Source: Phycisphaerae bacterium
GTDB lineage: Bacteria > Planctomycetota > Phycisphaerae > UBA1845
NCBI GenBank assembly: GCA_029260075.1
Contig: JAJDDY010000087.1
Coordinates: 62,001-126,000, forward strand
Length of the DNA stretch: 64,000 nucleotides
Direction of reading: 5' to 3'
The position numbers and the translations under genes were made by a program. This document shows positions 48,038 through 50,779 of this stretch, one piece after another (positions within the stretch are counted from its first letter, which is position 1; each line of letters starts with the position of its first letter). Below the pieces are notes generated by a model. That model was given only the letters and a program-made list of their open reading frames with translations. It ran no database searches and had not been told where the DNA came from.

Positions 48038-48154
48038 ACGACGCAGCGCCTTGAGCCTCGACCGACTCCATTGATCACGTTGGAATCTTGAATCAGTTCA
48101 GAAAACCAACCACACCGGGTTAGACCCACATCCTGTTTGAAGGAGGATTACTCG

Positions 48155-49633
<1,479 letters not shown>

Positions 49634-49663: not shown

Positions 49664-49744
49664 CCGAGCCGCGCCCGTAAGGAAGCGGACGTGTGCAAAC
49701 CGGTCGTGGCAACTTGAAAACGCTCCCTCACGGTCGCGGCTCGG
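49664..49744. repeat. GAGCCGCG-family inverted repeat
   Basis: Just after the rho stop: arms CCGAGCCGCGCCCGTAAGG and CCCTCACGGTCGCGGCTCGG, about 40 bases apart; preceded by TGCTCTGTAGCACGTCGAA, like the copy at 57433. Confidence 0.8.
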
Positions 49745-49785: not shown

Positions 49786-49944
49786 TAGGCTGTTGTGGAA
49801 CACGATGTTTGTGTGGCACCGGCTTCCAGCCGGTGATCCATTGACACCGCCCCGTTTCTTTGACGGGGCGGAACGCGTCGGCATCGGCCGCCGGACAGTG
49901 GCGAGCGGCTCGTGGATGCGTCAGGCTTGTCCAACAGACTGATA
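49786..49944 (+). mobile_element. TIR element, copy M (159 bp)
   Basis: Ends TAGGCTGTTGTGGAACACG and TTGTCCAACAGACTGATA with TA borders; longer than the others and its middle differs (CGCCCCGTTTCTTTGACGGGGCG). Confidence 0.7.
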
Positions 49945-49991
49945 GACTGTTCGTGCGCCGCCAATGGGCTGCGTTTGGAGGAACAAGAACC

Positions 49992-50225
49992 ATGGACATC
50001 AGTATCAAATACTGTATGCAGTGAAACTACTACCCCACAGCCGCCAGTCTGGCGGACGCAATCAAGGGTGAGTTCTCCACCGACGTGAAGATGATCGAAG
50101 GATCCGGCGGTGTGTTCGACGTACACGTCAACGGCACGCAAATCTGGAAGAAACAGGAAGTCGGCCGGTTCCCCGAACATGAAGAAGTGCTGAGCAAGAT
50201 TCGGTCGCTGACCGCCACTGCATAG
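49992..50225 (+). CDS. SelT/SelW/SelH-family (Rdx) selenoprotein with in-frame UGA for selenocysteine
   Basis: The frame runs ATG 49992 to TAG 50223-50225 with one UGA at 50022-50024, giving 77 residues when UGA is read as Sec (U11). The start is MDISIKYCMQ-U-NYYPTAASL, so the redox motif is C8-x-x-U11, exactly where SelW-like proteins have CxxU (or CxxC). The rest, IEGSGGVFDVHVNG, IWKK and GRFPEHEEVLSKI, is the clear family pattern of bacterial Rdx proteins, thioredoxin-like thiol/selenol redox proteins. GGAGG stands 10 bases before the ATG. A hairpin begins 16 bases after the UGA. Selenocysteine decoding needs SelA, SelB, SelD and tRNA-Sec, which are not in the window; the alternative is a pseudogene by a nonsense mutation, which the conserved position argues against. 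The gene sits between two TIR elements. Confidence 0.85.
50041..50055 (+). promoter_or_regulatory. Candidate bacterial SECIS hairpin
   Basis: Stem CCGCC/GGCGG with loop AGTCT (an A-U pair could extend it). The stem begins 16 bases after the UGA, within the distance at which SelB-binding hairpins lie in bacterial selenoprotein mRNAs. The loop has G-U-C, as in the fdhF element. Confidence 0.6.
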
Positions 50226-50297
50226 CGGTCTGTTGAAAAAGTGTGGCACCGGCTTCTAGCCGGTTATCCATTTGCGATCTTCGCCTCTTGACGGGAG
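50223..50297 (+). mobile_element. TIR element, copy I, right half lost
   Basis: Begins TAGCGGTCTGTTGAAAAAG, then core CACCGGCTTCTAGCCGG; truncated after CTTGACGGG. Its first three bases are the stop codon of the selenoprotein gene. Confidence 0.75.
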
Positions 50298-50318
50298 ATA
50301 TGGTCAGGGATTCGATAT

Positions 50319-50779
50319 ATGCCGCGACGTAGGTCATCAGCATGGGCTACTTTGTGCGGCGCGGCTTTTGGCGCAACCGTACCGGTTTCTCTCGTTGTTT
50401 TGGCGAACGTGGGGGGAGTACTGATGACAGTTCTCTCTTGTTCTTCTTGGCCTCCACCTTCAATTTGCCTGCGTTTGTCCTCTGGGACGCACTCGGCCCG
50501 TTAGTTGGTGACACGATAGCTCTATCCCCGTGCACGAGCCTAGCTGTCCTGAACACTCCTGCCTATGCTTTCATCGGATACGTCATCGGAATCGACTATC
50601 GAAGGCGCCAGGCGTCTCGACGATTGCGCTGCGGACGATGCGTCAACTGTGACTATGATTTGACCGGTAACCTCTCCGGCACCTGCCCGGAGTGCCGCAC
50701 GCAGACCCCAGCTAGGATCTTGGAATTGATTCAACGGGATCGGCTGGACAAAGAGATGGCTACGCGCGAACGTGATTGA
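50319..50779 (+). pseudogene. Small membrane protein with zinc ribbon, probable frameshift
   Basis: Two frames together make one plausible protein. The first (ATG 50319, AGGGA ribosome site) gives ATLCGAAFGATVPVSLVVLA, a good membrane helix. The second, one frame over, resumes with a membrane-like FFLASTFNLPAFVLWDALG and ends with a zinc ribbon CVNCDYDLTGNLSGTCPEC (about residues 98-116). The ribbon form CxxCxYDLxGxxxxxCPEC is common in Planctomycetota. The switch is near 50430-50450, within a CTCTTGTTCTTCTT run. A start at ATG 50342 would avoid the shift but gives a polar non-membrane N-terminus. It could be an indel in the sequence or a recent pseudogene. Confidence 0.6.

Follow-up and report, generated by a model that had tools for sequence, protein, structure and literature searches.

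A SelW-like gene with an in-frame UGA and a covarying SECIS stem-loop in a Phycisphaerae genome

The locus next to rho

The window (the whole 64,000-nt stretch of DNA that was analysed) belongs to a genome assembly of 4.92 Mb in 93 contigs, estimated at 96.9% complete, and contains a short selW-like gene interrupted by an in-frame UGA. The features of the locus and the repeats found around it are:

48137-49633: rho, the upstream neighbour of the selW-like gene
49811-49842 and 50241-50272: copies of a palindromic repeat bracketing the selW-like gene
49977-49981, + strand: GGAGG ribosome-binding site, 10 nt 5' of the ATG
49992-50225, + strand: selW-like (Rdx family) coding sequence, 77 residues with the UGA read through to TAG
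50013-50024, + strand: CxxU redox motif C-M-Q-U, residues C8 to U11
50022-50024, + strand: in-frame UGA at codon 11, proposed selenocysteine
50041-50055, + strand: bacterial SECIS stem-loop CCGCC/AGTCT/GGCGG, 5 bp, covarying in relatives
50046-50050, + strand: SECIS apical loop AGUCU, with the second-position G invariant in relatives
2161, 13147, 25383, 26614, 28189, 29555, 46450 (-), 51618 (-), 57578 (-) and 62731: other sites of the palindromic repeat core

The frame opens with the ATG at 49992 and comprises ten codons, the TGA, 66 further codons and the TAG at 50223-50225, giving, with UGA written as U, the product MDISIKYCMQUNYYPTAASLADAIKGEFSTDVKMIEGSGGVFDVHVNGTQIWKKQEVGRFPEHEEVLSKIRSLTATA. 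A sequence-only reading of this DNA had proposed a 78-codon ATG-to-TAG frame with UGA at codon 11, a GGAGG site ahead of it and a CCGCC/GGCGG hairpin starting 16 bases past the UGA; the coordinates of the frame proved exact, the ribosome site was found and the hairpin is present as described, with its arms at 50041-50045 and 50051-50055. GGAG-type ribosome sites also lie upstream of the selW-like genes of many relatives. Gene callers truncate or overlook such UGA-containing genes, and the standard open reading frame listing of the window showed no protein in the selW-like frame. A scan for promoters and terminators returned nothing.

The order rho-selW recurs in several genomes of the same family (L022, L025, L028, L036, L037, L039 and L044, also L080 and L081) and is absent from the other relatives examined, so the linkage is local. 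Between rho and the selW-like gene there is a 24-nt imperfect inverted repeat (88%; 49664-49687 and 49721-49744). Additionally, the window contains 12 copies of the palindromic element GTGTGGCACCGGCTTCCAGCCGGT, where 0 are expected by chance, and the element looks like a REP-type intergenic repeat.

Family membership and predicted fold

The product matches the Pfam Rdx family (PF10262) with 74.4 bits (E 8e-21, cut-off 22.6), NCBIfam TIGR02174 with 66.1 bits (cut-off 34.2) and NCBIfam NF041051 (SelTWH_Campy) with 88.3 bits, the last barely above its cut-off of 88. The match to the Rdx/SelW family is far beyond chance, and the bacterial Rdx/SelW-like identity first assigned by eye is thus borne out by profiles above their curated cut-offs.

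A fold model built from 35 sequences (mean pLDDT 85) places strands at residues 3-8, 32-37, 42-46 and 49-53 and helices at 14-28 and 63-76, which is the thioredoxin-like fold of the solved SelW relatives. The CxxU motif follows the first strand, and Sec11 falls in the loop that joins this strand to helix 1, the active-site place of thioredoxin-like proteins. The nearest PDB structures are the SelW-related proteins 2fa8 (Agrobacterium Atu0228), 2p0g (Vibrio) and 2obk (Pseudomonas), with TM scores of 0.86-0.90, an rmsd of ~1 A and sequence identities of 32-37%, followed by human MIEN1 (TM 0.80), mouse SelW (0.74) and then thioredoxins. The three nearest structures share fold and family with the window protein and differ from it in that we take them to be Cys forms, whereas the window gene has a UGA. 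Because the model combines a thioredoxin-like fold with Sec11 in the active-site loop, it points to a thiol/selenol redox activity of the protein.

The UGA codon and its stem-loop in relatives

An Rdx gene was found in 92 of 150 related Planctomycetota genomes, amounting to 98 copies. Of these, 97 hold exactly one internal TGA, and the remaining copy, which matches the family only in part, lacks one. The DNA of 55 TGA copies was read by script, and in every case the TGA is the U of a (Y/F)CxxU motif. The closest named relatives of the window gene are Planctomycetota MAGs (74-77% identity). Stop-free copies occur more widely in the phylum, and the four that were read (L051-L054) have Cys at the U column; among the family members Cys forms are rarer and more distant than UGA forms. 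No residue besides Sec(UGA) or Cys stands at that column in the copies read, and the unrelated residue pattern that the sequence-only reading had named as the mark of a nonsense mutation was not seen among them.

Taken in the window sequence alone, the hairpin is unremarkable. Its region has a folding energy of z -0.45 relative to shuffles, the fold of the hairpin is equalled by 130 of 500 synonymous shuffles, and the same crude rules pick out 25 further combinations of TGA, hairpin and open frame in the window, none of them with a selenoprotein motif recognisable by eye. Such hairpins are common in this G+C-rich window. The hairpin was consequently rejected as stand-alone evidence, being no better than shuffles and having 25 similar places in the window, and its significance arises only from comparison across relatives.

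That comparison covered 50 distinct relatives in a gap-free alignment, in which 95.2% of cells are paired and both-sided changes occur in 17 cells, distributed over three of the five pairs. The covariation score of 0.298 (against 0.136) was reached by none of 500 shuffles, controls that ignore relatedness, and covariation is strongly weaker when the partner is shifted by 1 to 3 columns. Hairpins such as GCCACC-GGTCT-GGTGGC, GCGGTC-GGTCT-GACCGC and CCGAC-AGTTT-GTCGG illustrate how the stem varies around a loop with the consensus (A/G)GU(C/U)U, which is kept across the 50 relatives. At the loop codon, 45 of the 50 have AGT or GGT, even though in these genes Ser and Gly are most often encoded by AGC and GGC. 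In 2000 synonymous-codon shuffles, which likewise ignore relatedness, the loop G-U (45/50 observed) was reached in at most 19/50 and the full set of five pairs (41/50 observed) in at most 22/50. The SECIS loop is not kept in the Cys copies.

The published model of the bacterial SECIS has an apical loop of 3-9 nt closed by a 4-16 bp stem, a G at loop position 1 or 2, 16-37 nt between the UGA and the apical loop and a minimum free energy <= -7.5 kcal/mol (PMC13188914). In the window the loop is the 5-nt AGUCU on 5 bp (or a 3-nt loop on 6 bp), its G is second and invariant in 55/55 TGA copies, the distance from UGA to apical loop is 21 nt (50025-50045), and the energy is -9.9 kcal/mol over the 39 nt that follow the UGA and -8.6 for the stem-loop. 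Folding under such rules had been proposed as a check on the hairpin, and the element lies within the published constraints and shows compensatory changes across relatives. In the fdhF element of E. coli, SelB contacts a G and a U of the apical loop, and a contact of this kind would fit the constant loop GU seen here.

An Rfam scan of 49900-50350 gave nothing meaningful, with one chance match. When a covariance model of the SECIS was run across the whole genome, only selW stood out and the weaker matches lacked a plausibly framed TGA; the model is selW-specific and therefore says little on other selenoproteins.

Selenocysteine machinery and the reading of the UGA

The sequence-only reading had predicted selA, selB, selD and selC in the same genome, and all four are present. 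SelA (475.6 bits) and SelB (337.7 bits) match over the whole of their models and adjoin each other on contig C4, and neither frame contains an in-frame TGA. The tRNA-Sec (selC) has the anticodon TCA and reaches 69.4 bits (gathering score 47). SelD (370 bits) likewise contains an in-frame UGA, within DYASCAGUAGK, and enters the feature list as follows:

Contig C36, L019 1501-2424, - strand: SelD, second UGA-containing gene and putative second selenoprotein, SCAGUAGK

The position of this UGA is the usual Sec/Cys place of SelD. Both SelD and the selW-like gene carry an in-frame UGA, and the two genes therefore support one another.

Across the relatives, a SelA match is found in 84 of the 92 genomes that carry the gene and in 22 of the 58 that do not (odds ratio 17, Fisher p 5e-12, a statistic that ignores relatedness and MAG incompleteness). 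Eight or nine gene-carrying MAGs, mostly incomplete assemblies, have no convincing SelA; since SelB exceeds the cut-off in 4 of the 9 gene-carrying genomes with no or doubtful SelA, the missing SelA is in part a matter of assembly gaps. The idea that relatives lacking SelA read the UGA in some other way was rejected on the same grounds, gaps being likelier. SelA is also present in 9 of 10 genomes of the phylum with a Cys copy, and the tenth, G152, which lacks SelA, is the one genome where only a Cys copy was found. As a separate observation, in family f4 genomes such as G053, G063, G066 and G081 the match of SelA to its model is split in two inside a single open frame, with ~85-160 nt of DNA separating the parts, which marks an insertion or diverged segment around model position 183-191.

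Downstream of the UGA the family mean of pS is 0.63 and that of pN about 0.24, and the window gene compared with L028 gives 0.49 and 0.16. As judged from these substitution values, the protein beyond the UGA is under purifying selection, and the excess of pS over pN argues that this part is translated and kept.

Almost certainly, 49992-50225 is the gene of a SelW-like selenoprotein of 77 residues in the Rdx family, and its UGA is read as Sec by means of the SECIS. The original proposal that the UGA specifies selenocysteine is supported by the machinery, the covarying SECIS and the conserved column; Sec insertion in the cell and the redox reaction of the protein are inferred. The ribosome would start at the ATG and arrive at the UGA at codon 11; SelA would make Sec-tRNA-Sec from Ser-tRNA-Sec with selenophosphate from SelD, and SelB carrying the Sec-tRNA-Sec is predicted to bind the stem-loop at 50041-50055 and insert selenocysteine, after which translation would continue to the TAG. 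The expected product is a small protein of thioredoxin-like fold in which Cys8 and Sec11 would form the CxxU redox pair, most likely cycling via a selenenylsulfide as a thiol/disulfide oxidoreductase.

A single in-frame stop near the start of a gene usually betrays a nonsense mutation, and the gene could then be a decaying pseudogene in which a Cys or other codon had turned into UGA. Against this, dozens of species from several families share the UGA at this column, and the downstream part is conserved with pS well above pN; conservation across genera excludes a pseudogene for practical purposes, and we give it a negligible chance. A general reassignment of UGA (as in code 4 or 25), with Trp or Gly as the residue, would likewise account for one UGA being read through. 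The UGA-less homologues read have Cys at that column, neither selA nor selB of this genome has a TGA in frame and the Sec machinery is complete, and this possibility too is for practical purposes excluded, with a probability close to nil.

Slightly less improbable, and still very unlikely, is that the UGA mainly terminates, leaving a 10-residue peptide, a hairpin that serves in regulation by selenium supply and a full-length protein made only in part. The covariation indicates that the hairpin is real, and Sec insertion competes with termination, with 30-40% recoding in vivo reported in PMC4513850. Yet conservation extends over the entire protein beyond the UGA, and its predicted fold is that of the family, so selection acts on the full-length product, and partial termination is compatible with Sec insertion at the UGA and not opposed to it.

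SelW-like selenoproteins have long been known in bacteria (PMC1794560, PMC1088965, PMC2398784), and the gene described here is a further member of this family. For SelW of Campylobacter jejuni (CJnc60), readthrough is supported by Ribo-seq and proteomics (PMC11955535). The two proteins belong to the same NF041051 profile family, have 77 (here) and 80 residues and have a UGA read, here by prediction, by tRNA-Sec; they differ in phylum, in that the C. jejuni gene was first annotated as an sRNA whereas this one lies behind rho, and in that the present one is known from sequence alone. In the GOS/Sargasso Sea metagenomes SelW-like was the most abundant selenoprotein family, with 427 Sec and 56 Cys forms (PMC2398784), and Cys forms of SelW-like are rare in Sec users (PMC1794560). 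The CxxU motif and the rarity of Cys forms are shared with the Planctomycetota; the GOS paper does not mention Planctomycetes (PMC2398784), whereas here the gene sits in a genome with its machinery. Within the phylum, Planctomycetes P1 and P2 resemble the source genome in having Sec machinery, reported in PMC4807772 as complete and accompanied by selenoproteins, and differ in that the main text of that paper names FdhA and FmdB and not SelW. A partial literature search found no paper on SelW in Planctomycetota.

The finding leaves existing knowledge of selenocysteine unchanged. A clean covarying SECIS with near-fixed Sec across a poorly studied phylum is useful for annotation, and the near-fixed Sec also for studying why the Sec of SelW is not readily replaced by Cys. 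It is possible, and we advance it only as a tentative and rather doubtful reading, that SelW-like is an obligate selenoprotein in this Planctomycetota order, with Sec in 97 of the 98 copies, one shared SECIS loop and Cys absent or confined to distant lineages, and that it may be among the main selenoproteins keeping the Sec trait.

SelW-like genes with a UGA and nearly the same SECIS also occur in MAGs assigned to Myxococcales and Deltaproteobacteria (L083 5001-5213 and L084 5001-5201), at 52-55% identity, and perhaps reflect transfer between phyla or MAG contamination.
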